Virus record (IMG/VR): IMGVR_UViG_3300025652_000122
Coordinates: 1-48,206 of that record
Strand: one strand, 5' to 3'
Length of the DNA stretch: 48,206 nt
Origin: a virus
Under the pieces are notes generated by a model. It made no database searches and was not told the origin of the DNA. It worked only from the letters and a program-made list of their open reading frames with translations. Position numbers and translations under genes: made by a program. The number at the start of each line of letters is the position of its first letter. Positions within the stretch are counted from its first letter, which is position 1. Of this stretch, positions 17,925 through 41,087 are shown piece by piece.

Positions 17925-17949
17925 GACTTTCTTCCTTTCTTTAAAAAAA

Positions 17950-17981
17950 CCTGTTGACAGGCCGAAAAATTATTGTACACT
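17950..17981. promoter_or_regulatory. Divergent promoter pair with shared palindrome
   Basis: Rightward: TTGACA (17954-17959), 16-bp spacer, TACACT (17976-17981), leading to the gene at 18014. Leftward: a TACAAT -10 (17977-17972) with a weak -35 leads to the helicase at 17924. The quasi-palindrome CCTGT-TG-ACAGG (17950-17961) contains the rightward -35 and would form a hairpin near the 5' end of the leftward transcript. The rightward leader starts with a small ACG-TTTT-CGT hairpin. One factor bound here could switch both operons. Confidence 0.6.
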
Positions 17982-18013
17982 ACGTTTTCGTTTTGAAGAA
18001 AGGATAACTTAAC

Positions 18014-27814: not shown

Positions 27815-28255
27815 CTATTTCCGGCGTCCAACGGAGCCGCCTTTTACTATGTTCCCGTTAGTGTCATTGTTCCGGTTTGAGTAAGCCAAAGTAGACATGT
27901 CTATTCGCTTCTCGTCTCGGTGCATGGCGTGTCTCGCGTTTGCTACCTCCGCATCACGAATCGCTTTTTTCAGACAGTCGTAATTGCTACCCTCCAATTT
28001 GCGCAGTAAGTCAATGTCTCTGTCGGCATTGTGATCCCACATCCATGTATTGATTTTGGGCAAGTGTGCGGCAGCAAAAACCCGTACCCCTACGTACCAA
28101 GGTAGCCCTATGGGTGGAATTCGTTTTAGTGGGGGGTCACAATCTACCGCGTACTTGCCACTCAGCGCGGCGAACAATTTAAGGGCATCCCCCACGTTCG
28201 CATTAGTACGCCAAGTTTTTATCAGCGCCGCATCCCAGTTCTTTTGATCGCTCAT
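27815..28255 (-). CDS. Hypothetical protein
   Basis: A 146-residue protein, MSDQKNWDAALIKTWRTNAN at the start, with a hydrophobic centre (LPWYVGVRVFAAAHLPKI) and a basic end (GGSVGRRK). Start overlaps the preceding stop (ATGA). No recognised family. Confidence 0.6.
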   Translation of the reverse strand: MSDQKNWDAALIKTWRTNANVGDALKLFAALSGKYAVDCDPPLKRIPPIGLPWYVGVRVFAAAHLPKINTWMWDHNADRDIDLLRKLEGSNYDCLKKAIRDAEVANARHAMHRDEKRIDMSTLAYSNRNNDTNGNIVKGGSVGRRK

Positions 28256-28434
28256 AATTTAAAAATGGCAGACGCCACCCCCACAATAAATGCTACCAAC
28301 CCAACAGCTGCAATGGCCGTTACCGCCCATACCAACATGTCAGCCCACTCACTAAACCCATCATCCAACTCCCGCCAATCCCCAATAGGACGCGGCTCCA
28401 CCGGATTTTCCTTAGTGTCTCGTTTCACCAGCAT
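28252..28434 (-). CDS. Small single-pass membrane protein
   Basis: A 60-residue protein; ATG 28434 is preferred since GGAGG lies 6-7 nt upstream, while earlier in-frame codons overlap the previous gene. A soluble charged N-terminus (about 1-32) is followed by one hydrophobic helix at about 34-58 (WAVTAIAAVGLVAFIVGVAS). C-tail-anchored inner-membrane protein of unknown role. Confidence 0.65.
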   Translation of the reverse strand: MLVKRDTKENPVEPRPIGDWRELDDGFSEWADMLVWAVTAIAAVGLVAFIVGVASAIFKL

Positions 28435-28753
28435 CATCACCCTCCTCATCAGATTCATCATCATCTTCCTCCTCAATATCAATCGTCTGCACTTTCGTGT
28501 CCCGATACGCAGACATCACCGCCCCCAACAACTCATGCAAATCCATACTCTGCAACTTCGCTAACGCCGCCACAGCAACCACCATCCCACCTAATGACCT
28601 AGGATCCTCCATATCCTGCGGATCATCACCCCCTATGTACTCCAACAACAGCCCCGCAGCTATCGCACAATCCTCACGAAACTCACCATCATCCGGGTTA
28701 TTAGGATCAAACATATATGCACTCTTAGTTAAAAATTTAGTTACGTTTATCAT
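28412..28753 (-). CDS. Hypothetical protein with acidic tail
   Basis: A 113-residue protein starting at ATG 28753, which forms an ATGA overlap with the preceding stop. The central helix pair (DCAIAAGLLLEYIGG, GGMVVAVAALAKLQSMDLHE) precedes a very acidic end (IEEEDDDESDEEGDDAGE), reminiscent of DNA-mimic or SSB-type tails. Function unknown. Confidence 0.65.
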   Translation of the reverse strand: MINVTKFLTKSAYMFDPNNPDDGEFREDCAIAAGLLLEYIGGDDPQDMEDPRSLGGMVVAVAALAKLQSMDLHELLGAVMSAYRDTKVQTIDIEEEDDDESDEEGDDAGETRH

Positions 28754-28959
28754 AGCTCGTCGTACCAATCATCTATCTGAATGAATAAATCAAAAAAATC
28801 ATCCTCAGTCAATAACGACGTAACATCCAAGGTCCCCGGACCATGGACCACGCTTACCTTAAAAATTCTGGACTCACCATTCTCATCGAGACCATATTCG
28901 ACCTGCACGGGCAAATTAAGTAATAAGTCTGCCGTGTACCGCGCTTCAGGGACTAACAT
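28750..28959 (-). CDS. First gene of leftward operon, small acidic protein
   Basis: A 69-residue protein starting MLVPEARYTADLLLNLPVQV, ending IQIDDWYDEL. The leader AACAGAAAGGATAGTGT before the ATG matches the AGAAAGGATA leader used by the rightward accessory genes. It begins the 15-gene leftward train driven from 28999-29027. Function unknown. Confidence 0.7.
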   Translation of the reverse strand: MLVPEARYTADLLLNLPVQVEYGLDENGESRIFKVSVVHGPGTLDVTSLLTEDDFFDLFIQIDDWYDEL

Positions 28960-28998
28960 ACACTATCCTTTCTGTTGTTCACTTGTTAAGATAGGTAC

Positions 28999-29027
28999 AG
29001 TTTAGGTTCAGGGGCTACAGAAGTCAA
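28999..29027 (-). promoter_or_regulatory. Promoter of the leftward small-gene operon
   Basis: On the minus strand TTGACT (29027-29022), a 17-bp spacer and TAAACT (29004-28999) lie about 40 nt upstream of the first ATG at 28959. Sigma70-like, moderately good match. Confidence 0.6.
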
Positions 29028-29099
29028 CCAGTTTGTGTCGAAATCCGTAGGGGTTTACCCTAGTAAATGGCTGTTTTTGCGGAAACCTATAGAGATATT

Positions 29100-29230
29100 T
29101 CTGGAGAAAATAAAAAAAAATATTTTTTTGTGAGATTTGACGTAATAGACGTAATGCCGTAATAAGTGAGTGTTTATGCGGGTTTTGGGCTAGTCGGTGA
29201 CATTACGTCTGTATTTTAGACGTAATTTTC
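29100..29230. promoter_or_regulatory. AT-rich region with GACGTAAT octamer cluster (candidate origin/operator)
   Basis: Within the 408-nt divergent gap 28960-29367. Octamers: GACGTAAT at 29139 and 29148, GCCGTAAT at 29156, ATTACGTC (inverted) at 29202-29209, and GACGTAAT at 29219-29226. The last two form a 9-bp perfect inverted repeat (ATTACGTCT / AGACGTAAT, 7-nt loop). A run of A then T (about 29108-29129) lies beside it and could unwind easily. The layout fits initiator iterons or a repressor operator controlling both flanking promoters. Confidence 0.6.
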
Positions 29231-29309
29231 TGGGGGGTTGTCGCATTTTAATTTTTTAGTTTTAATTTTTCTTTTTCTCAGACTGCCCTATATAGGTTTT
29301 GAAAATAGG

Positions 29310-29338
29310 TTGAGGCCCCTGTGTACACTAGATATACT
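29310..29338 (+). promoter_or_regulatory. Promoter for the terminase small-subunit operon
   Basis: TTGAGG (29310-29315), 17-bp spacer, TATACT (29333-29338), 29 nt upstream of the TTG start at 29368. A second TACACT hexamer overlaps just upstream (29324-29329). Confidence 0.6.
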
Positions 29339-29367
29339 TAGGCAACAGATAACACAAGGAAATCGTT

Positions 29368-29583
29368 TTGATACAGATTGAAGCAGGGATTGTAATCCCT
29401 AGTCACCGTTCGATGTACCCGTTTTCAGAGATGCTACCGGGCGATAGCTTTCTTGTACAAGACCGTAAGAAAGCAGACTCAGCTAGGGTGGCATCCATTC
29501 GCTTTGTCAAGCGCCAAGAGCCCGATTGGGCCTTTGTTATGCGCAAGGTGGCGGATGGCTGGCGCATCTGGCGGACTGCCTAA
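29368..29583 (+). CDS. Small hypothetical protein before terminase small subunit
   Basis: A 71-residue protein starting at TTG 29368, with AAGGA 7 nt upstream. Content MIQIEAGIVIPSHRSMYPFS, a beta-rich core (SFLVQDRKKADSARVASIRF) and WAFVMRKVADGWRIWRTA resemble short phage proteins with a replication- or transcription-associated beta domain; no family certain. Stop overlaps the next start (TAATG). Confidence 0.65.
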   Translation: MIQIEAGIVIPSHRSMYPFSEMLPGDSFLVQDRKKADSARVASIRFVKRQEPDWAFVMRKVADGWRIWRTA

Positions 29584-30245
29584 TGCCAAAGCGCGACGTT
29601 TGGAACGTTCCCCCTGTTGTCCCTGACAAGGCAAAGAATCGCCTTGCGACCGAAGTAAAGCCGCTGCGCAAGCAAAAGGTATTGAATGCTAAGGAATGGA
29701 AGTTTGTCCAAGAGTATGTGTCAGGAGATGGCCGGGTCACTTTGAAAGAGGCGGCTATCCGGGCAGGGTATAAAGAGGGCAGCGCGTCAGTTATGGCGTG
29801 GAAGTTGACCAACCCGAAAGAGTATCCTCATGTTGTGGCTGCAATTCAGGCATATCGCGCCGAATTGGCTTCTAAGTACAACACCAGCTATGAGCGGCAC
29901 ATGCGGGACTTGCAGGTCATCAGGGATAAGGCCATGGACAGCGGAGCATGGGCGGCTGCGGTGCAGGCGGAGTACCGCCGGGGCCAAGCCCTTGGGACTA
30001 TTTATGTCGAGCGCAAAGAGATCAGGCACGGCACCATTGATAGCATGAGCAAAGAAGAGGTGCAGCGCAAGCTGGACGAGTTAAAGCAGCTGTACGGTCC
30101 CCCGCCTACTGCCTTGATCGATGCGGATAGCGGGCAAGTATTGGATACCATTGAGCGGGAGAAAGACCCTGTTTTTGATCCCGGCGTGGCCGAACCGCCA
30201 TTAGATATTTTCGAGCGGGATAATGACAATGGCCCTGACGCCTGA
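29583..30245 (+). CDS. Terminase small subunit
   Basis: A 220-residue protein from ATG 29583 (one-base overlap with the previous stop). The block LNAKEWKFVQEYV, TLKEAAIRAGY and VMAWKLTNPKEYPHVVAAI (about 38-90) is the helix-turn-helix of Terminase_2/small-terminase proteins. RHMRDLQVIRDKA and EYRRGQALGTIYV follow. It would recognise the packaging site and recruit the large subunit, which lies about 5 kb downstream, separated by accessory genes. Confidence 0.85.
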   Translation: MPKRDVWNVPPVVPDKAKNRLATEVKPLRKQKVLNAKEWKFVQEYVSGDGRVTLKEAAIRAGYKEGSASVMAWKLTNPKEYPHVVAAIQAYRAELASKYNTSYERHMRDLQVIRDKAMDSGAWAAAVQAEYRRGQALGTIYVERKEIRHGTIDSMSKEEVQRKLDELKQLYGPPPTALIDADSGQVLDTIEREKDPVFDPGVAEPPLDIFERDNDNGPDA

Positions 30246-30627
30246 GGCTAGGTTTTCCGCGAGGGTCCGCGATGGGTTGAAGGCATGCGGCTGTGATGTT
30301 GAGCGCATTGAAAACCGGGTGAACCTTGGGGTGTCCGATATGGTCATTGGCGTCGGCCCCTTGTTTGTCACGGTGGAATTGAAGGTTGTAGCTCGTGGGC
30401 TACAAGTGAAGCTGCGACCGCATCAAATATCGTTTTTGACCCGGCATGCCTTGAAGGGCCGCCCGGCTTTTGTCCTTGTTAAATACGATGCTGCCGACGA
30501 GGTGCGGTTATATCATGGCCGCCAAGCCGTCGAGCTTGCGACCGAAGGTTTACGGCTGCAGCCGATAGCAGCGTGGCCGTCCCGGGGCATGCCTTGGGAT
30601 AAACTATCAGAAGCCCTTAGCCAATAG
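30223..30627 (+). CDS. VRR-NUC-like nuclease
   Basis: A 134-residue protein overlapping the terminase gene by 23 nt. Carries the VRR-NUC pattern: LGVSDMVI (Asp39), TVELKVV (Glu52, Lys54), LRPHQISFL (Gln69) and a strand AFVLVKY. Stand-alone VRR-NUC domains cut branched or structured DNA and may resolve replication intermediates before packaging. ATG 30229 is an alternative start two codons in. Confidence 0.8.
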   Translation: MTMALTPEARFSARVRDGLKACGCDVERIENRVNLGVSDMVIGVGPLFVTVELKVVARGLQVKLRPHQISFLTRHALKGRPAFVLVKYDAADEVRLYHGRQAVELATEGLRLQPIAAWPSRGMPWDKLSEALSQ

Positions 30628-30637
30628 AAAATAATCA

Positions 30638-30684
30638 TTGGACAGTCGGACTTGCTGGGTTATTATTGCTTTGCGTTTTCGCAA
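30638..30684 (+). promoter_or_regulatory. Promoter plus 5' hairpin, cassette A
   Basis: TTGGAC (30638-30643), 17-bp spacer, TATTAT (30661-30666). Four bases later a hairpin TTGCG-TTTT-CGCAA (30671-30684) would sit at the 5' end of the message, then TTTTAGAAAGGATAGAGAG and the ATG at 30704. Confidence 0.65.
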
Positions 30685-30703
30685 TTTTAGAAAGGATAGA
30701 GAG

Positions 30704-30895
30704 ATGACACACGATCAGTTTATTGATCGGCTGGCCTTAGAGGTTGCCGATAGCATGGACCACGATAACCTTTGGTTTTTCGCTGTTCGAGTATTGGGCG
30801 ATGAGTATTCACGTCTTAGTAATGATGAGCTGGCCGCGACTGTTGCGAGCCATGCCCCCCAGCTGCTGGATGAGTTAATGGAGTTGCCGAAATGA
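30704..30895 (+). CDS. Small acidic hypothetical protein
   Basis: A 63-residue protein, MTHDQFIDRLALEVADSMDH at the start, helical and acidic. The ATG at 30704 follows AGAAAGGATAGAG; a TTG at 30638 overlaps the -35 box and is not used. Coupled by ATGA to the next gene. Function unknown. Confidence 0.7.
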   Translation: MTHDQFIDRLALEVADSMDHDNLWFFAVRVLGDEYSRLSNDELAATVASHAPQLLDELMELPK

Positions 30896-31086
30896 AAAAA
30901 GAGCCTGATTATTTCGCTATCTCCCGTGTATGGGATGAAGGCGTTGCTTGCGCGGACTGCATGCATTGTCATACTCGTAAAGAGACCCGGCCATATGGTG
31001 AAGGTTCCGTTTATGAGACTTTCCGGGAATGCGATATTCTGGACGAGCTGGCCGATGGGGATTGCCCCGGCCTTGGAACGAATTAG
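30892..31086 (+). CDS. Small Cys-rich protein, possible zinc-binding
   Basis: A 64-residue protein with CADCMHCH (Cys20, Cys23, Cys26 in C-x2-C-x2-C) and later Cys47 and Cys58. Pattern fits a small zinc-binding domain. ATGA overlap with the preceding gene. Function unknown. Confidence 0.68.
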   Translation: MKKEPDYFAISRVWDEGVACADCMHCHTRKETRPYGEGSVYETFRECDILDELADGDCPGLGTN

Positions 31087-31101
31087 GGTTTCACCTAAGT
31101 C

Positions 31102-31133
31102 GGGCTTAGAATTTTAGAGGCTATACTAAGCCC
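31102..31133 (+). promoter_or_regulatory. -10 element enclosed in an inverted repeat, cassette B
   Basis: GGGCTTAG (31102-31109) and CTAAGCCC (31126-31133) are perfect 8-bp arms around a 16-nt centre. The -10-like TATACT (31122-31127) overlaps the right arm. The common leader CTAGAAAGGATAG follows (31141-31153) before ATG 31158. Unlike the other cassettes the repeat surrounds the promoter, so it may be an operator or an upstream 3' hairpin. Confidence 0.5.
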
Positions 31134-31157
31134 TCACCAACTAGAAAGGATAGAACG

Positions 31158-31853
31158 ATGATTAAAACCGTCACACAATCAGGCAACAAAAAAACCGGGG
31201 CGATAGCGGTAACTTATCGCGCTGGGAAGACTAGCCCCTACGGGAGCTGCCCGGCCACTTGTTCACTCATGCCCGCGAATCATTGCGGAACCGTTGAAAT
31301 CGACCCGGAATATATGGCCGCTGTTGAAAACGCAGTACCCCGTCGTGGTATCGCGTGGACTTATTCACATTTCCCAGCCGAAGCCCTGCCCCTGCCGAAG
31401 AAGGGTAAAACCGTTTTTAATGCGAGCTGCGAGACGGTGGCGGAAGCCGTGCGAGCGGTAGAGCTTGGCCGCCCTGCTGTTATGGCCGCCGGGTTAGATA
31501 CCGTGGGGAGCTGGCCGCGTAAGGTGCATGGCGTGCAGTTTGCACAATGCCCCGCGGAACTGTCCGACAATTTCAGCTGCGCACAATGTGGCGGTGGTTC
31601 CCCGCTATGTGCGCGTGGTGACCGTGGATTTGTCGTGGTGTTTATCGCGCACGGAACCAGCAAAAAGAAAGTCGGCGCAGCCGAAAAGGGGGGCTGCTAT
31701 GGTTCAAGTGGTCCCGTGATGATTCAATGGAAAGCCGCGCAGGATAAGGGCTTGGAAAACGACGCGGAGGCGCTGGGTAGATTCGCGGCAACATTACCGC
31801 CCGGTTCGATGTTGCGGCACCATGTCGTCGGTGATGTGGGGGTGGCGATATGA
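31158..31853 (+). CDS. Conserved Cys-rich phage protein (DUF7227-like)
   Basis: A 231-residue protein starting MIKTVTQSGNKKTGAIAVTY. Cysteines are clustered: SCPATCSL...NHCG, then FSCAQCGGGSPLCARG and GGCYGSS, suggesting metal binding (possibly an Fe-S or zinc site). The N-terminal TYRAGKTSPYGSCPATCSL block recurs in phages of beta- and gammaproteobacteria; I associate it with DUF7227, function unknown. Coupled to a 20-residue membrane ORF by ATGA. Confidence 0.65.
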   Translation: MIKTVTQSGNKKTGAIAVTYRAGKTSPYGSCPATCSLMPANHCGTVEIDPEYMAAVENAVPRRGIAWTYSHFPAEALPLPKKGKTVFNASCETVAEAVRAVELGRPAVMAAGLDTVGSWPRKVHGVQFAQCPAELSDNFSCAQCGGGSPLCARGDRGFVVVFIAHGTSKKKVGAAEKGGCYGSSGPVMIQWKAAQDKGLENDAEALGRFAATLPPGSMLRHHVVGDVGVAI

Positions 31854-31912
31854 TTTTAATTTTAGTAGTAGCGGCTATTTTTTATATTGGCTGGGTTTTA
31901 TTTGATAGCTAA
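31850..31912 (+). CDS. 20-residue single-pass membrane microprotein
   Basis: The ORF reads MILILVVAAIFYIGWVLFDS, one hydrophobic helix with an acidic tip. Its ATG overlaps the stop of the upstream gene (ATGA), the junction used by bona fide coupled genes in this genome. No separate ribosome site. May be real or chance. Confidence 0.4.
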   Translation: MILILVVAAIFYIGWVLFDS

Positions 31913-31931
31913 GGGAAAGCCCTAATATGCG

Positions 31932-31980
31932 AGCCTTAATTTCAGGCTAAAATTGATTCACCGCTGCACGTCGTAGCGGT
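31932..31980 (+). promoter_or_regulatory. Promoter plus 5' hairpin, cassette C
   Basis: TAAAAT (31948-31953) is the -10; no good -35 is seen. An AGCCT/AGGCT inverted repeat (31932-31936 with 31944-31948) lies just before it. Six bases after the -10, ACCGCT (31960-31965) pairs with AGCGGT (31975-31980). TTTTATAAAGGATAGAGTA then leads to ATG 32000. Confidence 0.6.
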
Positions 31981-31999
31981 TTTTATAAAGGATAGAGTA

Positions 32000-33007
32000 A
32001 TGTCACATATGATTGATGAAACTACGGGCACCGCCGCAATTGCTTATGCAGGCGCGACACCATGGCACGGACTAGGGCAGGCGTTAACGCCCGGACAGTC
32101 AATTGAGACGTGGACAAAAGAAGCCGGGCTAGACTATACGGTTCTGGAAAGCCCCGTGATGTATGACAGCCCCGCGGCTAGTGTTCCGCAAGTATGGCCT
32201 AATCGCAAGGTTTTGCACCGTAGCGACACCGGGGCACCGCTGGCCGTAGTGAGTGACAATTACAACGTCGTCCAGCCGTCCGCCGTGATGGGTTTTTTTA
32301 GCGAGCTGGTGAGAATCGGGGGCTTTGAGATGGAAACCGCCGGAGCCCTTAGCGATGGCCGCCGGGTTTGGGCGCTGGCTAAAGTAGGCGATGCCGCCCC
32401 GGTGGTGGACGGTGACCTAGTCAAGCCTTATATTTTGCTGGGCACGTCATACGATGGCACCATGGCAACCGTGGCAAAGTTTACCGCTATACGCGTGGTT
32501 TGTAATAACACCATAACCGCCGCCGTGGGGGGATACAGTAACGGGGCACCGATACGCGGGGAAGCCGACAGCGAGAAAGGCTATTTAAAGTCCGCGGTGC
32601 GTGTATTGCATAGCGCGAATTTTGACCCGGACAGCGTCCGCTTACAGCTGGGTATTGTGGCGAATCAATTCGAGCGTTTTATGGTGACCAGCCGCCAACT
32701 TGCAGGCGAAACCATGAGCGCAGCCGAAGCCGATAGTTTCGTGGCCGAATTGCTCAAGCCCTATCACACAAGCCGCTTGGATATTAGCGAGAGCAAAGCA
32801 TATAAGCGCATCATGCAGTTGTTCAACGGTGCGGCTATTGGCGCGGACATACAAGGCGTGGCTGGTACGCGCTGGGCGGCACTCAATGCCGTTACCGAGC
32901 TAGTTGACCATGAGCGCGGACGCACGGCTAATACGCGCATGGAAAGCGCATGGTTTGGCACGGGTTCTGCCCTTAAAAACCGCGCTTTAGAGCTACTTTC
33001 TGCCTAA
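32000..33007 (+). CDS. DUF932 phage/plasmid-like protein
   Basis: A 335-residue protein of the DUF932 (TIGR03299-like) family: AYAGATPWHGLGQAL near the N-terminus, SDNYNVVQPSAVMGFF, FTAIRVVCNNTI and the C-terminal NTRMESAWFGTGSALKNRAL. The family is common in phages and plasmids, usually near replication or accessory genes, with no established reaction. Monocistronic here, with its own promoter and a 3' hairpin. Confidence 0.92.
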   Translation: MSHMIDETTGTAAIAYAGATPWHGLGQALTPGQSIETWTKEAGLDYTVLESPVMYDSPAASVPQVWPNRKVLHRSDTGAPLAVVSDNYNVVQPSAVMGFFSELVRIGGFEMETAGALSDGRRVWALAKVGDAAPVVDGDLVKPYILLGTSYDGTMATVAKFTAIRVVCNNTITAAVGGYSNGAPIRGEADSEKGYLKSAVRVLHSANFDPDSVRLQLGIVANQFERFMVTSRQLAGETMSAAEADSFVAELLKPYHTSRLDISESKAYKRIMQLFNGAAIGADIQGVAGTRWAALNAVTELVDHERGRTANTRMESAWFGTGSALKNRALELLSA

Positions 33008-33018
33008 TTGCTTAACCT

Positions 33019-33055
33019 GCCCCATAATTGCCCAAAATACGGGTAATCGTGGGGC
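33019..33055 (+). terminator. Long 3' hairpin after the DUF932 gene
   Basis: The left arm 33019-33033 (GCCCCATAATTGCCC) pairs with 33041-33055 (GGGTAATCGTGGGGC) with one mismatch and two wobbles; 7-nt loop. Followed by TTGTGGCTTTATT, a poor U-tract, so it may be a weak terminator or a 3' stability element. Confidence 0.6.
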
Positions 33056-33175
33056 TTGTGGCTTTATTAGGTGCTTTTTTGTCATGTTGCTTTTACTGGT
33101 GTAAACCGGTTCCGGGGTGCTTGTCGCTTGGTGCGTGAGACGTGGCGCGCGGTGCGTGCGCCGTGTTGCATGGTT

Positions 33176-33198
33176 CGGGGCACGGGAACCGTGCCCCG
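33176..33198 (+). promoter_or_regulatory. Leader hairpin upstream of gene 33226
   Basis: CGGGGCACGG (33176-33185), GAA loop, CCGTGCCCCG (33189-33198): 10 perfect base pairs. It lies 27 nt before ATG 33226. No clear -10 precedes it; the nearest, TGTAAA near 33102, is weak. The remaining 33056-33175 stretch is G/T-rich and holds no gene I can support. Confidence 0.6.
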
Positions 33199-33225
33199 TG
33201 GGGCTTTATCTATTGGGGGTTTGTG

Positions 33226-33411
33226 ATGTATTTGTTTTTTATTGAAACCGCGAGCGGTGAGCGTGTGGTGTGGCGGGGCTTGTCGCGCCACATGGCGGTG
33301 CGGATGTACAACGCCACGGGGCGGTGCGCGGTGGCCAAGCGCTGGGGCTGGGAGGAGGAAAGGGAACCGTGCGCCGTGGGGCTGGACAATGATTGTATTT
33401 CTGGTGTATAA
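33226..33411 (+). CDS. Small hypothetical protein
   Basis: A 61-residue protein starting at ATG 33226 (GGGGGT upstream); an upstream GTG 33142 would run through the hairpin. MYLFFIETASGERVVWRGLS then MAVRMYNATGRCAVAKRWGW and an acidic C-terminus. Its TAA (33409-33411) lies inside the TATAAT box of the next cassette. Function unknown. Confidence 0.6.
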   Translation: MYLFFIETASGERVVWRGLSRHMAVRMYNATGRCAVAKRWGWEEEREPCAVGLDNDCISGV

Positions 33412-33440
33412 TTACTGAACCGCACCAGCTGGTGCGGTTC
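33383..33440 (+). promoter_or_regulatory. Promoter plus perfect 24-bp palindrome, cassette D
   Basis: TGGACA (33383-33388), 18-bp spacer, TATAAT (33407-33412). Four bases later comes a perfect 24-bp palindrome (33417-33440) with arm GAACCGCACCAG, which would fold into a hairpin at the predicted 5' end of the RNA. AACTAGAAAGGATATTCATC and ATG 33461 follow. Confidence 0.75.
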
Positions 33441-33460
33441 AACTAGAAAGGATATTCATC

Positions 33461-33886
33461 ATGGGACTCGATATGTATTTGACCGCTTCCGCTAATATGC
33501 TGGACAGCGAGGGCGTAGAGATTGAGGGGCTGGATGCTGGCGGCATGGAGATTGCCGCCGTGGAGTATCGCGCGGGCTACTGGCGCAAGGCTAACGCGGT
33601 GCATGGCTGGTTTGTCCAGCACGTTCAAGGCGGCGAGGACAACTGCCGCCCGTATGAGGTGGAGCGCAAACAGTTGGAACAGTTGCGCGACTTGTGCGCG
33701 TATATCCTGAAAGATAAGGACACCGCCGGACTGCCGCCGACGGCTGGTTTTTTCTTTGGTGCCGCCGAAATCGATGATTGGTACTGGGAAGACCTGCGCT
33801 TGACGGTGAATATATGCAATAACGCGCTGGGGCTGGCGGACAGCGGGCGCCATTATTGGACATTTAATTACCAGTCCAGCTGGTAA
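33461..33886 (+). CDS. Conserved hypothetical phage protein (MGLDMYL type)
   Basis: A 141-residue protein beginning MGLDMYLTASANML, with AGYWRKANAVHGWFVQHVQG, NCRPYEVERKQLEQLRDLC and DWYWEDLRLTVNICN. This family is widely found in phages, often misnamed; no reaction is established. The WRKAN(A)VHxWFV signature suggests a compact alpha/beta domain. Led by cassette D. Confidence 0.78.
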   Translation: MGLDMYLTASANMLDSEGVEIEGLDAGGMEIAAVEYRAGYWRKANAVHGWFVQHVQGGEDNCRPYEVERKQLEQLRDLCAYILKDKDTAGLPPTAGFFFGAAEIDDWYWEDLRLTVNICNNALGLADSGRHYWTFNYQSSW

Positions 33887-33928
33887 TTCTGGGGTATAAT
33901 TCAGGCATGCACCCGGCCGGGTGCATGC
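33868..33928 (+). promoter_or_regulatory. Inverted repeat, TATAAT and perfect 24-bp palindrome, cassette E
   Basis: TTACCAG (33868-33874) / CTGGTAA (33880-33886) spans the end of the previous gene. TATAAT is at 33895-33900 with no good -35. After four bases a second perfect 24-bp palindrome (33905-33928, arm GCATGCACCCGG) follows, unrelated in sequence to that of cassette D. AACTAGAAAGGCATAGAG leads to ATG 33947. Confidence 0.75.
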
Positions 33929-33946
33929 AACTAGAAAGGCATAGAG

Positions 33947-34432
33947 ATGACAAAATTTGACTTGACCCAGTATCGTAACCGGATGTTCGCCGACCGCGGC
34001 ACGGACATCAACGACGCATTAGACTATGCGTTATCCTTGACCACCGGAAACCCTGAGGGGTTAACGGCCATGTATGTGGTGTTGAATACGGTAATCAACG
34101 CTGTGCAGGCCGACAGCCTAGCGTCCGCCGCGGTGGCCGCCGCCGCCCCTGAGCCTGAGCGTATGCCGACCGCGGTTATCATATCCGCCGCGGTGCGCGA
34201 TTGGCTGGCGGACAACGCCAGCGAGATGGTGTCCGACTGGTGCGAGGACAACGCCAACGAAACTATCACCGACTGGTGCGGTGACAACCACGACGTGGAG
34301 GACTGGCTGGGCGAGCACGCCGACTCGCTCATTGAGCATTGGATGAACTACAACGCCAAGCATAGCGTGGAGGAAATAGTCACCGAAAAGGTGGAGAGCA
34401 TGAGCTTCACAGTCAGCGCAAAAGTGTTATAA
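33947..34432 (+). CDS. Hypothetical protein with acidic DW repeats
   Basis: A 161-residue protein. The N-terminal part is MTKFDLTQYRNRMFADRGTD. The C-terminal half has repeated acidic segments built on DW: VRDWLADNASEMV, VSDWCEDNANETI, ITDWCGDNHDVED and WLGEHADSLIEHW, spaced about 15 residues. These could be a helical repeat or metal-binding acidic surface. Its TAA lies inside the next TATAAT box. Function unknown. Confidence 0.65.
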   Translation: MTKFDLTQYRNRMFADRGTDINDALDYALSLTTGNPEGLTAMYVVLNTVINAVQADSLASAAVAAAAPEPERMPTAVIISAAVRDWLADNASEMVSDWCEDNANETITDWCGDNHDVEDWLGEHADSLIEHWMNYNAKHSVEEIVTEKVESMSFTVSAKVL

Positions 34433-34461
34433 TTGACCCAGCCCCACCGTCCGGTGGGGCT
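34406..34461 (+). promoter_or_regulatory. Promoter plus hairpin, cassette F
   Basis: TTCACA (34406-34411), 16-bp spacer, extended -10 TGT-TATAAT (34428-34433). Six bases later AGCCCCACCG (34440-34449) pairs with CGGTGGGGCT (34452-34461), a 10-bp stem. TAATCAGAAAGGATATTTATC then leads to ATG 34483. Confidence 0.75.
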
Positions 34462-34482
34462 TAATCAGAAAGGATATTTATC

Positions 34483-34776
34483 ATGACTCATACAGTCAAA
34501 ACCATCACTATCGGTCACACCACGCTGGAGCTACCAGCCAGTATGCCCAACAAGGATATCCAGCAGTTGGCTGGATACTTGGCAACTCTCCGCCGCGTGG
34601 AGAGCCACGGCCTCTGGGCGGCGGAATACCAGACGGTGTTCTACGTTGACACCAACGGCCCGACTATTACGCTAGGCGAGCATGAGGTACACACCAAGCA
34701 TGAGGCCGATGAACTGCAGGCCGCCGACCGATTAGCACGCGAGGCGAAAGAGAAAGCAGAGCGCGCAATGGGGTAA
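34483..34776 (+). CDS. Small hypothetical protein
   Basis: A 97-residue protein, MTHTVKTITIGHTTLELPAS at the start (beta hairpin), a helix, and a charged C-terminal helix (EADELQAADRLAREAKEKAE). Last gene of the accessory block before a strong terminator. Function unknown. Confidence 0.68.
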   Translation: MTHTVKTITIGHTTLELPASMPNKDIQQLAGYLATLRRVESHGLWAAEYQTVFYVDTNGPTITLGEHEVHTKHEADELQAADRLAREAKEKAERAMG

Positions 34777-34783
34777 CCCCCTA

Positions 34784-34836
34784 CTGGGGCAACCGCCCCA
34801 GTCGCATAAGCCAGCCCCGTGGGGCTGGCTTTTTTA
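34784..34836 (+). terminator. Tandem hairpins with rho-independent terminator
   Basis: CTGGGGC-AACC-GCCCCAG (34784-34801) is followed by AGCCAGCCCC-GT-GGGGCTGGCT (34809-34830) and TTTTTATT. The second is a strong intrinsic terminator ending the accessory block. Confidence 0.93.
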
Positions 34837-34838
34837 TT

Positions 34839-34919
34839 GCCTAATCGCAGAGGGATTAGGCAGGCAGCGTGCAATAGGTACATACCCCTATTGACACGGC
34901 ACGCGCCGCGTGCCGTGTC
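34839..34919. repeat. Two further inverted repeats in the gap before terminase
   Basis: GCCTAATC (34839-34846) / GATTAGGC (34854-34861), 7-nt loop. Then GACACGGCACGCG (34893-34905), one C, CGCGTGCCGTGTC (34907-34919), a 27-nt near-perfect palindrome followed by a pyrimidine run (TCTCTCTTCTTCTG). The rest of the 413-nt gap 34777-35189 holds no gene I can support; G-rich runs occur at about 34950-35030 and 35100-35152. The area may hold packaging-related signals. Confidence 0.8.
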
Positions 34920-35120
34920 TCTCTCTTCTTCTGTATTTTTTCCCTTAAAGGTGGTGGAGGGGGTGGGCGGGCCCGACTCACTACTGTTTTCTTATATTGA
35001 AGTTTAGGTATTAGGAGAGGGGGAGGGCCATTTAGGCACCGGGTTCAACCAGCGAAGCGCGTAGCTCAAATTTAGCCCCTGAAATAGCTTTCAAGAACGA
35101 AGGGGGAGGGTTCAAAAAGG

Positions 35121-35158
35121 CCCCCCTTGTTTTTAAAAAGGCCATAGGGGGGTATACT
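35121..35158 (+). promoter_or_regulatory. Candidate promoter of the late packaging operon
   Basis: TATACT (35153-35158) with a poor -35 (TTGTTT at 35127-35132, 20-bp spacer). CCCCCC (35121-35126) and GGGGGG (35147-35152) form an inverted repeat directly upstream of the -10, enclosing TTTTTAAAAA. It may need a phage-encoded activator. Confidence 0.45.
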
Positions 35159-35189
35159 TATAAAAATTTCAGAACCTGAGGGTCTGCCT

Positions 35190-36659
35190 GTGCAAAACGA
35201 CACACAAGATATTGAAGCCGAACGACTGCGCCTAGAACTGCGGTTGAAGTTATTAGAAACACGAGAGCGTGCTACTGGCAATTTCATAGACTTTGCCAAG
35301 TATGTATGGCCCGAGATGCTTGTTGGGGAGCACCACCGCATTATTGCGGAAGCCTTTGACAGGGTCATTGAGGGCAAATGCAAGCGGCTAATGATTGCCA
35401 TGCCTCCGCGCCATGGTAAATCTCAGCTTGGGAGCTACTTGTTCCCTGCCTACTTGATGGGCAAGCTGCCTCAATCAAAGCTCATTGTGGGTTCTCACAC
35501 CGCGGAACTGGCTCAGCGCTTTGGCCGCATGATCCGTAACCTTGTAGATGAGGAGCGGTATAGGGAGCTTTTCCCGGACATTGGCCTTTCTGCGGACTCC
35601 AAGGCTTCGGGCCGGTGGAACACGAAGAACGGAGGGGAGGCGTTCTTCATTGGTAAGGGCGGTGCGATGACGGGCCGTGGTGGTGACATCGTGATTCTGG
35701 ATGACATCTTGGACGAGCAGGATGCTTTGTCGGACACGGCCATGGAGAATACTTGGGAGTGGTATACCTCTGGTCCGCGGCAGCGATTACAGCCTAATGG
35801 CTCAATCATTGTGATTAACACTCGTTGGAAGACGGACGATCTTACGGGGCGCTTGATGCGTCAATCGGGGCAGTTGAAGTCTGATCAGTGGGAGGTGATT
35901 GAGTTCCCTGCTATTTTGCCGTCGAACACGCCGCTTTGGCCTGAGTACTGGGATCTTGAGGAGTTAGAGAAGGTCAAGGTCAGTATTGGGATGAAGAAGT
36001 GGCAGGCTCAGTGGCAGCAGCAGCCGACCAATGATGAGGGGGCTATTCTGAAGCGGGAGTGGTGGCGCAAGTGGACTAAGGATTTTGTCCCGGAGTGTGA
36101 GTACATTATCCAGTCGTATGATACGGCGTACTCGAAAAAGGAGTCTGCTGACTACTCTGTTATCAGTACTTGGGGCGTATTTACCCCTGACGCAGACTCG
36201 GGCCCCAACTTGATTCTACTAGATGTCAAACGTGGTCGGTGGGACTTTCCTGAGTTAAAGCGGATTGCGCGGGATGCTTATAAGTACTGGAACCCGGACA
36301 ATGTTTTGATTGAGGCGAAGGCGACGGGTACGCCGTTGCAGCAGGAACTGAGGCGGGTGGGTATTCCGGTGACCATGTACAGCCCCGGGGGCCGTCGCAC
36401 GGGCCAAGATAAGGTAAGCAGGGCTAATGCTGTGGCACCTTTGTTGGAGTCGGGGATGATTTGGTATCCTGAGGGGGAGGAGTGGGCCGAGGAGCTTGTA
36501 GAGGAGTGCGCGTCATTTCCTGCGGGGTCAAATGATGACCAAGTGGATTCGGCGGTTATGGCTTGGACGCGATTTCGTCAGGGTAACTTTTTGTCATTAA
36601 ACGACGATGACGATGATGAGGACGAGGAGCCGCAGGACAATATACTTGAGTATTATTAG
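35190..36659 (+). CDS. Terminase large subunit
   Basis: A 489-residue ATPase-nuclease that drives DNA into the capsid. Starts at GTG 35190 with GAGGGT upstream. Walker A-like PPRHGKS (72-78), Walker B VILDD (168-172), a coupling segment INTRWKTDD, then the RNase H-like nuclease: QSYDTAYSK (first Asp), LIEAKATGTP (Glu) and NDDQVDSA (Asp). Ends in an acidic run (DDDDDEDEEP). Length is normal for the family. The small subunit is encoded about 5 kb upstream. Confidence 0.95.
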   Translation: MQNDTQDIEAERLRLELRLKLLETRERATGNFIDFAKYVWPEMLVGEHHRIIAEAFDRVIEGKCKRLMIAMPPRHGKSQLGSYLFPAYLMGKLPQSKLIVGSHTAELAQRFGRMIRNLVDEERYRELFPDIGLSADSKASGRWNTKNGGEAFFIGKGGAMTGRGGDIVILDDILDEQDALSDTAMENTWEWYTSGPRQRLQPNGSIIVINTRWKTDDLTGRLMRQSGQLKSDQWEVIEFPAILPSNTPLWPEYWDLEELEKVKVSIGMKKWQAQWQQQPTNDEGAILKREWWRKWTKDFVPECEYIIQSYDTAYSKKESADYSVISTWGVFTPDADSGPNLILLDVKRGRWDFPELKRIARDAYKYWNPDNVLIEAKATGTPLQQELRRVGIPVTMYSPGGRRTGQDKVSRANAVAPLLESGMIWYPEGEEWAEELVEECASFPAGSNDDQVDSAVMAWTRFRQGNFLSLNDDDDDEDEEPQDNILEYY

Positions 36660-36673
36660 CTTTTCGTTACAAT
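36646..36673 (+). promoter_or_regulatory. Candidate promoter between terminase and the 1459-aa gene
   Basis: TTGAGT (36646-36651), 16-bp spacer, TACAAT (36668-36673). CAATAG (36670-36675) and CTATTG (36684-36689) form a 6-bp inverted repeat at the expected transcript start. GATAAGGACC precedes the ATG at 36708. Confidence 0.5.
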
Positions 36674-36707
36674 AGGCATACTTCTATTGAGATAAGGACC
36701 GCGGTTC

Positions 36708-39700
36708 ATGGCCCAAGATATTGTAGCAAAGATACAGGCTGCTGCGCAGGCGAGCGGTGTTGATCCGGATGTTGCGTTGCGCATTGCGGGTGTTGAGAGT
36801 AGTTTTAGGCCTGCGGCCAAGAACCCGGAGTCAACTGCGGCTGGTTTGTTTCAGGTGACGGGTCCTACTTGGAAGCAGTATGGTGGTAAGCCGGGCAAGC
36901 AGCGCGATGTAGATGAGAACATTCGCGTGGGCATGAAGATCTTGTCTAGTAATAAGGCGAGCATGCAGGAGTTCTTGGGCCGTGAGCCTTTGCCCTCTGA
37001 CATTTATGCTGCGCACTTTTTTGGTCCTACGGGGGCGCGGGCGGTGATGTCGGCGGATCCTTTGGCTCCTGTAGCTTCTGTGGTGTCGAAGCAGGTTATG
37101 GAGGCGAACCCGCAGTTGGTGGGCAAGACGGTCAATGAGGTATTGACTGGTTATCGCCAGACGTTTGACAAGGGTGGCAAGCGTTATCCGACGAGCGAGC
37201 CGGTGAAGACAACGACCGTGGGGCAAGGAACACGAACCATGGATCAAGAGGCGGGTGCAGCTGCGCCCGCCCTTAGTAATCGATCCAGTGCTAGAGATCG
37301 CATTGCTGGCATGGGTTCTAATTATCAGGCTGCTTTGGCGGCGATGATGTTGGGTGAGGCGTCGGACGAGGACGATAAGGACGACGATACTGATACGCCT
37401 AAAGAGGCGTATACGGCCCCGACGGCGGCGAATGCTTTGTCGGAATTGGATTTAGGCAGGACTGCCAGTCCGTTTGATGCGATGGAGCCTGCTGTCCAGC
37501 CAGAGGGGGCGAAGTACCCGATGCGGTTTGCTAAGGGTGGTGAGGCAAGTGCGCCTATCACGGTAGATAACGTAACTGGCTTTTTGTCGGACATGGCGGT
37601 GCCTGCTGTGTTGGGGGCTATCAATCCTGCGTTGGGCAAGGCTTATAGTTTATATAGCGCGTATAACACGGTTAGTGATTTTGCTAATGAGGCGCAGCCT
37701 CCAGCGCCTGTGGTTTCTTTAAATGAGGCGGTTACTGAGGCTGGGAAGACAACGCCTTTTGGGGCACGCTCTTTTATGCCTAGTGGACCGGCCCCTGTGG
37801 TTAGTGCGCAGGATCATGGCATTATAAGTGTCCCGGCTTCTGGTTCTGAGCACTGGGGCGGAACGCCTTCTCCAGCTCCAGCTCCAGCTCCAGCTCCCTC
37901 CACAGATTATGGCTCAATTAACGACTTTGGTGGTTCTGGTCCAAGCGTGGGCGCGGCGACAGACAGTGGTTTTGATGCCGGATTTGGATTTGGTATGGGG
38001 TTTGCCGAGGGCGGTGAGGCAAGCACGGATGATTACCCGGGGCTCAAGGACCTTGAAGGTTATGCCATTAGGGCATCTGAGCAGATGTTCCCAACTGAGG
38101 TGGGGCAGGATGATCGCCGGGATGCTGCGCGGCACATGTTAGCTGCTGCGGTGGCGGCGCAAAAGGTTGGTCCGGGGGCCGCGGAGTTTTTAGGTAAGGC
38201 GCATGAGCGTTTAAGCAATGCCGAGTCGTTTTTCAACATGTTTGGTGTTGGCGAGCCGCGATACGACTACGACATGGATGTGCAGAACAACCGGATTGGT
38301 ATTGGCTTGGCGGATCAGGCCACGAGCCGTGAGGAGTTGGAGGCGCTTGTAAAGCAGATGGCTCAGCGCACGTCTACTAGTAGAAACCCTAACTTACCAT
38401 GGACCATGGATCAGGAGCAGCGCGATGCGTTGATTGAGGATCGCAAACGTCGCTTGGAGACGCCGCAATATAAAAACGACGGTGGTGAGATGGTGGCGGA
38501 TGAGACGTTTAGTGGGGATTTTGAGGGCTACAAGGCGCTTAACCCTCGTGCGGTGGAGGAGGCGATCTACAGAAGTAGGAATCTGACAAAGAAAACAGAC
38601 CCTGATAGTTGGCCGAGCCCCGGCAATCCTAGAAGATCGATTCCAAACGAACCAAGGGATTACCCTACCCGTGCTGGGCAGGAGCTTTTAGAGTTTTTGA
38701 AGCAGGCGGACAGGATGCCTACGGTGGTGGAGCCTCGTCGTTATCCCAATGGCAGCTACGACGCCCCGGGGTTTACCTACCGCAGCAATAACCCCGAAGA
38801 TCGCGGCGTAGTGGAGGTTCCCACTTTTACAAAAGATGGTTATGGAACCTTAGTGCACGAGCTTACACACTCCGCGGACCGTGCCATGGACGTTGAGCAG
38901 TTAAGGCTGTCTCAGAAGGTAAGGGCGGGCGAGCCGCTTACGCCAAAGGAGCAGCGGTTTTACGACGGGTACAGTAAGCTGTATAAGACTAAGACAAATC
39001 TGCCTTTGGACATTTCGGACGAAAGCACGTCAGATCGCCAGAGGCGCTACCGAACAAGTGCCAAAGAGCTAAGAGCATTTGGCACGGGCAACATGGCACA
39101 GGATCAGCCTGAGCCGGGCCGTTACAGCCTAGAGGACATTGGCGCAACGCTAAATCCTCATGTAGATCCAACCATGGCCCAAGAAGCGGCAATCATGCGT
39201 GATTTGTATTTACGCAGAGGCGAGGTACGTGGTCGGGCGGAAGGATCACCCCCTGAGGGCGAATATGCGGACCCTGAGGCGGCCTTTATGGCTGGAGCAG
39301 GGGATGCGCCAGCCCCTAATGCAGAAAACGCTGCAGCAGCCCTTGCTGCCCTTCGCGGCCTAGGGGAATACCCTTATAACCTTGTTGGTGGCGGAGTGGA
39401 TCTAGCGGCTATGGCTATGCGCCCGTTTGGTTACGACGTAGAAAAGCCCGTACTTGGTTCTGATTGGATAAAAGAGAAAGCGACTCAGTTAGGTATTCGA
39501 CCGCCGGAGGAAACCGATCCAACGCTGCGAGACATTCGCATGGGAACGGAAATAGCTACTTCTGTGTTGGATCCTTCCGCTGGTGCTCGTGCCGTGGGGT
39601 CCACGCTTCGCGGAGCCGGGGAGTTAGCTACATCTGAGCCAGCACGTGCAATGCTGAACAGGGCAATGGAGGCGGGGGGATCTGGCCCAATGTACGCGGT

Positions 39701-41087
39701 CCGCCCACCCGGTGGAGTAATGATTCAGCAACCGGCGCAAATTACCACTGACGTTACTGATGGGGGGTTCCGCATTATTCCTGCAGGGGGTGTGGAGGGA
39801 GCGCTACGGCCTGCCGACGACGTCATTGGTGGTTTAGACCAAATGATGGACACGGCAATTTTGCAGACAACTCTTGAAACAGAAAACCCAGAGGTATTCA
39901 AGGCCGTTTCTGATTTCTTAATGACCAAGGGGCGTCAGTATTTTTCCAAAAATTACGCCTCTACTAAGGACCCAATATACGACGCGTTGAAGGACGGTCG
40001 GATTAAGCCGTTGCCTGACGATGAAAGGGGGTTTCGTAGTTACATGTTGGCCGCAGCGCGGGAGGGGGATCCAGAGGCCCTGACCGATTTAGTCAGCCGC
40101 TACGACAAAGGTATCAAGGGCTACGTGGATGACAAAAAGCCCGGGGGCATAGACTCAAGGCCCGCTACTCTTGATTTGCGGGCTAAGGCCCAAGAGGCGG
40201 CTGCCCGATCTGGGTTACTTCCAGAGGAAGTAACTGTGGATGAGGACGTGTTCCGTTTGTTTGACGCAAGCCCTTTCAGTCACCCTAGGAAGGCTATAAA
40301 GGCGGGTATTCCAGAGGTGCTGGAGGCTTCAAAGTACGATGAGCCTATTTTTGACATGGCAGGGTATGAAGTACCGAGCTTTATGAGCCCAAAGGTTGTT
40401 GCACAAGAGCTGGTAAATATTCCTGTGGACAAGTTGCAAAAAATGAGTTATCCAGAGGCTGTTATAGCGGTAAATAAAAACTTGCGGTTTAAGGAAGATT
40501 TAAATGCCGCAATGGAGCGGGTTAGGCAGGGGAAAGATGTTCCAAAAGAGATAATGCTATTTGGGACAAGCCCAGTTAAAACTGCTACTGAAAACAGCAA
40601 TCTGGGCTGGGTTAAATTGACGGATAGCCGTGCAACCGCAATGGAGGGCGAAGCAATGGGCCATTCTGTTGGGGGCTATAACAGGCTAGGCGGTTACAAT
40701 GCGGGCGGCAAAGAGGCATTTGATAGTGGCGTGGCTGAGATTTATTCTTTGCGGGATAAAAAAGGAAGGCCTGTAGCTACGGTAGAGGTGCAGAATCTCC
40801 CGGGAGGCCCTCAAGGAAATACAGAACGAGTGGTAACTGACATCCGAGGTAAATATAACTCCCGCCCCCCTGATGATAAAGCAATATTTGAACTGTTTGA
40901 TCAAATTAAACCCACTAGTGTTAGAAAAAAAGCATACGTTAGAGATCGAAACAATGAGCCCCTAGAGGACTCGGTTTTTGCAGATTGGGACACTGACTAC
41001 GCAGAATGGCGCTTGGGCAATCCACAAGGCTTTGCCAAGGGTGGACTTGTTGAACGCAACGTGTACAATCACCAGAAATACCTGTAA
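36708..41087 (+). CDS. 1459-aa multidomain virion protein: lytic transglycosylase, toxin-like domain, HExxH, PcfJ-like end
   Basis: Domains in order: SLT-type transglycosylase (about 1-130; catalytic Glu30, GLFQVTGPTW at 46-55), which would open peptidoglycan during DNA entry. Then a disordered Pro/Gly region with FAKGGEA (274-280) and FAEGGEA (432-438). Then a DUF6973-like block (about 445-560: DAARHM 472-477, HERLSN from 499, DMDVQNN 522-528). Then a zinc-peptidase motif HELTH (717-721). Finally a PcfJ-like end (about 1300-1440: MEGEAMGHSVGGY, EIYSLRDKKGRPVATVEVQ, IRGKYNSRP) and FAKGGL at 1442. Probably ejected with the DNA; several activities are inferred. Confidence 0.82.
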   Translation: MAQDIVAKIQAAAQASGVDPDVALRIAGVESSFRPAAKNPESTAAGLFQVTGPTWKQYGGKPGKQRDVDENIRVGMKILSSNKASMQEFLGREPLPSDIYAAHFFGPTGARAVMSADPLAPVASVVSKQVMEANPQLVGKTVNEVLTGYRQTFDKGGKRYPTSEPVKTTTVGQGTRTMDQEAGAAAPALSNRSSARDRIAGMGSNYQAALAAMMLGEASDEDDKDDDTDTPKEAYTAPTAANALSELDLGRTASPFDAMEPAVQPEGAKYPMRFAKGGEASAPITVDNVTGFLSDMAVPAVLGAINPALGKAYSLYSAYNTVSDFANEAQPPAPVVSLNEAVTEAGKTTPFGARSFMPSGPAPVVSAQDHGIISVPASGSEHWGGTPSPAPAPAPAPSTDYGSINDFGGSGPSVGAATDSGFDAGFGFGMGFAEGGEASTDDYPGLKDLEGYAIRASEQMFPTEVGQDDRRDAARHMLAAAVAAQKVGPGAAEFLGKAHERLSNAESFFNMFGVGEPRYDYDMDVQNNRIGIGLADQATSREELEALVKQMAQRTSTSRNPNLPWTMDQEQRDALIEDRKRRLETPQYKNDGGEMVADETFSGDFEGYKALNPRAVEEAIYRSRNLTKKTDPDSWPSPGNPRRSIPNEPRDYPTRAGQELLEFLKQADRMPTVVEPRRYPNGSYDAPGFTYRSNNPEDRGVVEVPTFTKDGYGTLVHELTHSADRAMDVEQLRLSQKVRAGEPLTPKEQRFYDGYSKLYKTKTNLPLDISDESTSDRQRRYRTSAKELRAFGTGNMAQDQPEPGRYSLEDIGATLNPHVDPTMAQEAAIMRDLYLRRGEVRGRAEGSPPEGEYADPEAAFMAGAGDAPAPNAENAAAALAALRGLGEYPYNLVGGGVDLAAMAMRPFGYDVEKPVLGSDWIKEKATQLGIRPPEETDPTLRDIRMGTEIATSVLDPSAGARAVGSTLRGAGELATSEPARAMLNRAMEAGGSGPMYAVRPPGGVMIQQPAQITTDVTDGGFRIIPAGGVEGALRPADDVIGGLDQMMDTAILQTTLETENPEVFKAVSDFLMTKGRQYFSKNYASTKDPIYDALKDGRIKPLPDDERGFRSYMLAAAREGDPEALTDLVSRYDKGIKGYVDDKKPGGIDSRPATLDLRAKAQEAAARSGLLPEEVTVDEDVFRLFDASPFSHPRKAIKAGIPEVLEASKYDEPIFDMAGYEVPSFMSPKVVAQELVNIPVDKLQKMSYPEAVIAVNKNLRFKEDLNAAMERVRQGKDVPKEIMLFGTSPVKTATENSNLGWVKLTDSRATAMEGEAMGHSVGGYNRLGGYNAGGKEAFDSGVAEIYSLRDKKGRPVATVEVQNLPGGPQGNTERVVTDIRGKYNSRPPDDKAIFELFDQIKPTSVRKKAYVRDRNNEPLEDSVFADWDTDYAEWRLGNPQGFAKGGLVERNVYNHQKYL
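37872..37895 (+). repeat. CCAGCT hexamer repeat (4 copies)
   Basis: Four exact CCAGCT copies encode the centre of a Pro-Ala run in the 1459-aa protein. In-frame linker microsatellite. Confidence 0.95.

Follow-up and report, generated by a model that had tools for sequence, protein, structure and literature searches.

Hairpins at the predicted transcript starts of single-gene cassettes in a group of related phages

IMG/VR virus record IMGVR_UViG_3300025652_000122 (48,206 bases, analysed as a whole and called the window below) contains five genes, with start codons at positions 30704, 32000, 33461, 33947 and 34483, that are each preceded by a -10 box, a hairpin and a ribosome-binding leader resembling AGAAAGGATA. 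This layout, including its coordinates and spacing, had been proposed in a first-pass annotation and is confirmed by direct reading of the sequence. It raises the question of why a stem is placed in front of each of these genes, and what such a stem does. By computation we determined the architecture of the cassettes, their recurrence in relatives, their pairing at the RNA level and their anchoring to the -10 box. The role suggested by these results, to which we assign a probability of about 0.6, is that of 5'-terminal mRNA stabilising elements, provided gene by gene behind host-type promoters.

Recurrence, register and pairing of the hairpins

Relatives were fetched with the DUF932 protein read from the second cassette (335 amino acids, PF06067, E=5.6e-53; gene at 32000..33007, + strand). 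The scan of viral contigs gave 260 related loci, 80 of which were kept, and a scan with the DUF7227 protein of the window gave 20. Nearly all DUF932 leaders consist of a -10 box, a hairpin, a GAAAG-type or AGGAG-type leader and the ATG. For quantitative analysis we used 145 non-redundant leaders with a promoter, AGAAAG and an ATG, selected without any hairpin criterion; counts from this set cover sequences of shared ancestry and are not independent events. Their mean minimum free energy is -12.1, compared with -7.1 for dinucleotide shuffles, and for 95 of the 145 no more than 2 of 40 shuffles fold as well. Stems of at least 6 Watson-Crick pairs occur in 91 leaders (63%) versus 6% of letter-shuffled ones. 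By the shuffle criterion, hairpins are present in 18 of 28 DUF7227-like leaders, 22 of 25 DUF932 leaders, 6 of 7 in the 33947 family and 11 of 11 in the 34483 family, where every orthologous leader folds better than nearly all of its shuffles, as well as in others. Altogether, 1.09 Mb of relatives contain 104 hairpins with an upstream -10 box and a downstream AGAAAG, compared with 0 in the reversed-sequence control. Stem pairing and a short distance from the -10 box, which the first-pass annotation had proposed to look for in related phages, are both present in a large group of IMG/VR phages.

The layout appears to be a property of this group. Among the matches listed in a scan for TATAAT-N24..52-AGAAAGGATA, it was found in contigs of the group, with several copies per contig. 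Start-site stems were present in 12 of 16 leaders on contigs similar to the window's DUF932, DUF7227 or TerL proteins versus 3 of 34 on other contigs, and we rejected the idea that the hairpin generally accompanies any leader of the form TATAAT...AGAAAGGATA...ATG.

The position of the stem is fixed most tightly relative to the promoter. In 81 of the 91 stemmed leaders the stem starts 3-7 nucleotides (nt) past the -10 box, with a mode at 6 and none at 8-9; stem starts in shuffled leaders are spread out and show no peak. Counting from the box, position 6 is C or T in 72 of 84 leaders and position 7 is A or G in 61 of 84. Since this is the usual initiator, the base of the stem coincides with the predicted +1 and leaves approximately 0-2 unpaired nt, so that a 5'-terminal stem with few or no unpaired nucleotides is found on the predicted start site. 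Where stems start only 3-4 nt past the box, the outermost pairs would go untranscribed and the end would still be flush. In contrast, the gap between stem and AGAAAG is broad (mostly 3-13), and the distance from stem to ATG is also much looser than that from -10 box to stem. The feature is thus tied to the transcript start and not to the start codon, and the earlier placement of the hairpin at the transcript 5' end is well supported by this anchoring in relatives, the start site itself being predicted.

What is conserved is pairing. In the alignment of 34 DUF932 leaders 90.4% of cells pair, and 27 cells show double changes versus 12.2 in shuffles, none of which (0/500) reaches 27. Shifting the register by 1-3 columns leaves 34-57% of cells paired and no more than 3 double changes. 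At columns 21/38 of this alignment U-G occurs more often than any other combination (18 of 34), and internal G-U pairs outnumber A-C combinations by 39 to 14 over all leaders, two counts that should be similar without selection on RNA. Because pairing survives sequence changes and G-U exceeds A-C, we conclude that the structure forms in RNA and is not a DNA operator. Compensatory changes, the G-U excess and the -10 anchoring together bear out the earlier proposal that conservation lies in position and structure and not in sequence. Structure without fixed sequence and pairing in RNA, two characteristics of 5'-terminal stabilising stem-loops, are accordingly both found here.

Proposed role and competing explanations

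We propose that each cassette works as an expression unit of its own, with a host-type sigma-70 promoter, presumably served by host RNA polymerase. The transcript would begin at or within ~1-2 nt of the base of the hairpin (typically 6-11 bp), and after the hairpin would come an A-rich ribosome-binding leader largely without structure (consensus ~AACCTAGAAAGGATA), then the ATG. Most likely, the hairpin would act as a sequence-independent 5'-terminal shield that leaves no single-stranded 5' end for conversion by an RppH-type pyrophosphohydrolase or for 5'-end sensing by RNase E, and the short mRNA of each gene would thereby live longer. Stabilisation of the 5' end was also the role favoured in the first-pass annotation, and it is the best explanation at hand. 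Precedents are available: 5' stem-loops shield ompA and T7 gene 10 mRNAs from RNase E (PMC2254391), and bla mRNA becomes more stable with a 5' hairpin, which also hinders RppH (PMC3997798). RppH of B. subtilis requires at least 2 unpaired 5' nt (PMC3997798), and the sharp limit at 7 nt past the -10 box fits a constraint of this type. A broader version, which we hold only tentatively, is that the whole lineage employs a structural, sequence-free and modular "5' cap", in which start site and hairpin base may be co-selected to leave no 5' overhang and accessory mRNAs may be exempted from 5'-end-dependent decay during infection; individual stems would be replaced rapidly, with pairing and start-site register preserved.

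Of the other roles, action in early transcription ranks next after stabilisation and is unlikely in our estimate. Here the hairpin would affect promoter escape, pausing or anti-backtracking through the nascent RNA and not mRNA lifetime, which would give identical positional anchoring; moreover, some relatives have GTTCTTTAAC[AC], similar to the rrn boxA (a transcription-antitermination signal), after a comparable hairpin. However, none of the five window cassettes has a boxA-like sequence, and stem length and loop (mostly 3-6 nt) vary freely, for which a passive barrier is a better fit than a factor-binding element. Next in order comes translation, a role that the first-pass annotation had also considered: the hairpin might tune or insulate translation by fixing the fold of the 5' part, which would keep the AGAAAGGATA leader open whatever lies upstream, or it might provide a standby site. 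Hairpin and leader do usually co-occur, and the leader is A-rich and conserved. This explanation is nevertheless disfavoured by the predicted unpaired probability of the ribosome-binding leader, which is 0.66 in native sequences and 0.64 when the 5' part is shuffled, and by the distances from hairpin to leader and to ATG, which vary widely, unlike that from -10 box to hairpin. The suggestion of a phage-specific RNA-handling system found no positive support: of the window proteins that were scanned, none could be recognised as a phage RNA polymerase, an RNase or a decapping enzyme.

Two further possibilities concern DNA sites and terminators, and both seem improbable, the latter being the least probable of all. 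Many arms are perfect palindromes across +1, the classic position for a repressor, and could represent operators for a dimeric protein. An inner CACC...GGTG also recurs in the window's clade (CCACC/GCACC...GGTGG/GGTGC), so the earlier description of the hairpin sequences as unrelated was nearly, if not entirely, right. However, arms differ among promoters within one genome (73 distinct arms among 84 leaders), and a DNA palindrome predicts neither the preference for G-U over A-C nor a position that is mostly U-G. Within the 33947 and 34483 families, stems differ between orthologous leaders and are nearly all strongly paired, which speaks strongly against a single DNA operator. As for intrinsic terminators or attenuators, sense or antisense, that would insulate neighbouring genes, the stems are G+C-rich and lie in intergenic gaps, and the 32000 hairpin is followed by TTTTT, at odds with the earlier statement that U-tracts are lacking. 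That statement largely holds for the family, in which at least 6 T within 8 nt after the stem occur in just 3 of 84 leaders in the sense and 4 of 84 in the antisense direction; the terminator was rejected on this count. With U-tracts rare and leader accessibility independent of the hairpin, an effect at the RNA 5' end is what remains.

Several points weigh against stabilisation. Certain E. coli mRNAs do not respond to a 5' hairpin (rpsO; T7-transcribed lacZ) (PMC3997798), and start-site anchoring is compatible with transcriptional roles as well. Approximately one third of promoter+AGAAAG leaders have no strong stem, so the start-site stem is not obligatory. Mapped 5' ends or half-life data were found for none of these phages. 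DSL-LC04, the sole named relative, is a phage assembled from Dishui Lake metagenomes whose hosts are only predicted, and the prophage route gave no host, since the cassette is absent from six bacterial DUF932 loci (43-55% identical; Azohydromonas, Accumulibacter).

The cassettes in the window and related designs elsewhere

All five cassettes are on the + strand, between the small and large terminase genes, ahead of the DUF932 gene and small genes without assigned function. The stem starts 4, 6, 3, 4 and 6 nt past the -10 box, in order of position, and the 18-21 nt between stem end and ATG reported earlier are correct on direct reading. Sites matching AGAAAGGATA with at most one mismatch number 10 in the window versus 2.0 +/- 1.5 expected. 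Leaders were folded from the predicted start site and z-scored against shuffles. Cassette 3 (33383..33460; -35 TGGACA 33383-33388, -10 TATAAT 33407-33412, hairpin TGAACCGCACC-AGCT-GGTGCGGTTCA 33416-33441, leader AGAAAGGATA 33445-33454) gave -19.8 kcal/mol (z=-5.3) and precedes the gene of a 141-amino-acid protein without assigned function (phrog_7971; 33461..33886). Cassette 4 (33895..33946; -10 TATAAT 33895-33900, hairpin GCATGCACCC-GGCC-GGGTGCATGC 33905-33928, leader AGAAAGGCATA 33933-33943) gave -20.5 kcal/mol (z=-3.5); the gene read from it (33947..34432) encodes a 161-amino-acid protein, also unassigned, whose orthologous leaders carry different hairpins. For cassette 5 (34428..34482; -10 TATAAT 34428-34433, hairpin AGCCCCACC-GTCC-GGTGGGGCT 34440-34461, leader AGAAAGGATA 34467-34476), upstream of the gene of an unassigned 97-amino-acid protein (34483..34776), the values are -19.0 kcal/mol and z=-3.2.

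The remaining two cassettes fold less well. Cassette 2, in front of the DUF932 gene (31948..31999; -10 TAAAAT 31948-31953, hairpin ACCGCTGC-ACGTC-GTAGCGGT 31960-31980 with one G-U pair and five T after it, leader ATAAAGGATA 31985-31994), is moderate at -12.8 kcal/mol (z=-2.3), and the orthologous leader is paired and covarying in relatives. Cassette 1 is the weakest (30638..30703; -35 TTGGAC 30638-30643, -10 TATTAT 30661-30666, hairpin TTGCG-TTTT-CGCAA 30671-30684, leader AGAAAGGATA 30689-30698); it precedes the gene of a 63-amino-acid protein with weak DUF7326 similarity (ATG 30704). Its fold of -5.1 kcal/mol (z=+0.3) is not better than shuffles, so its hairpin is unsupported on its own, and the sole homologue available for comparison is identical and hence uninformative. 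Thus, of the hairpins first proposed for all five leaders, three stand far above shuffles and that of 32000 moderately so, and that of 30704 does not.

Other leaders in the window depart from the layout. Upstream of the DUF7227 gene (ATG 31158, + strand), a dyad GGGCTTAG...CTAAGCCC at 31102..31133 contains a -10-like TATACT (31122-31127) and for this reason is no transcript-start hairpin; from the start site onward this leader has no stable fold. In promoter variants of contigs L151 (7427, 7967) and L152 (11827), the -10 box itself sits inside a large inverted repeat, AGCCCTGCTGGGG...CCCCAGCAGGGCT, and the sequence from the start site onward forms just a weak hairpin. The leaders at 17997 (+) and 28973 (-) have a promoter and AGAAAGGATA without a hairpin. 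The partial version of the cassette earlier seen at the helicase promoter amounts to just a small CCTGTCAACAGG hairpin in the leftward SNF2-helicase leader. Divergent promoters overlap at 17930-18013, with the palindrome CCTGTTGACAGG common to both in the region around -35. At its end the rightward side has AGAAAGGATA but no hairpin.

The window proteins scanned include TerL (35190), a portal protein (41097), a family A DNA polymerase, a small terminase, UvrD-type and SNF2-type helicases and an AEP-type primase. Between TerL and portal, a 1459-amino-acid protein (36708-41087) shows transglycosylase-like and tail/baseplate similarities confined to its first ~280 residues. A megablast of positions 28000-40000 against named phages gave no match, and at gathering score neither the window nor seven relatives had any match (0) to Rfam 15.

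Two related designs were noted in other contigs. One consists of TTGACA-like and TATAAT-like boxes, a hairpin (e.g. TTGTCA...TGACA), GTTCTTTAAC[AC] close to the rrn boxA and a ribosome-binding leader; it was located in L128 (789), L131 (7521), L134 (7328) and L137 (1345) on the + strand, in L132, L144, L158, L160, L163 and L195 on the - strand, and in L106. These are possibly rrn-type boxB-boxA antitermination leaders in the same phages. The other occurs in different phages, L003, L052 (contig IMGVR_UViG_2703719118_000001) and L064, in which TATAAT promoters, one per gene, lead into a short stem that varies (GGAC/GTCC, GGAG/CTCC, AGAG/CTCT) around a nearly fixed loop AAGGAAA(A), and then AAACCAGAAAGGA. 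We regard it as separate because its stem is farther from the -10 box than in the window cassettes.

Comparison with known systems

Hairpins near phage promoters are known in other settings. The conserved hairpin upstream of +1 in N4 vRNAP promoters is the promoter itself; we rejected this assignment, as the hairpins found here differ in sequence and come after a sigma-70-type -10 box. An rrn-type boxB-boxA antitermination leader was likewise rejected for the five cassettes, which contain no boxA-like match (about TGCTCTTTAACA), such matches being present after other hairpins in relatives. T7 late mRNAs are transcripts of T7 RNA polymerase and have one common start sequence, which is part of the phage promoter. 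The T7 gene 10 (phi10) mRNA has an 8-bp stem at its 5' end that is reported, at second hand, to be stabilising (PMC2254391, citing Mertens 1996). As described there, it resembles the cassettes in being a phage mRNA with a 5'-end stem upstream of an A/U-rich ribosome-binding region; the cassettes differ in having host-type promoters and hairpins that are unlike in sequence and selected for pairing.

Cluster K mycobacteriophages carry Start-Associated Sequences (SAS), a conserved ribosome-binding leader repeated upstream of many small genes, about half of which are preceded by inverted repeats and termed Extended SAS (ESAS) (PMC3203893). The layout of repeated leader and inverted repeats before small genes is alike. 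However, the ESAS repeats have a 17-bp consensus for which the authors, on inspection, saw little RNA-pairing support and favoured a DNA-binding site (PMC3203893), whereas the arms described here vary and RNA pairing is supported, so that they do not conform to ESAS.

In E. coli ompA and papA, as proposed for the cassettes, a sequence-independent 5'-end stem limits access of RppH and RNase E (PMC3997798; PMC2254391). Those are single chromosomal genes with measured lifetimes, in contrast to a repeated per-gene module whose effect on lifetime is predicted. The same architecture was not found in the open-licence papers searched, T7 gene 10 and ESAS being closest; single 5' stabilising hairpins are already known, and we found no report of a start-site stem built into many genes, new each time, across a phage lineage. 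If the stabilising role is right, natural selection acts on the free 5' end itself, expression design gains an extensive natural collection of start-flush stems, and the dependence of phage mRNAs on escaping 5'-end-dependent decay becomes testable.

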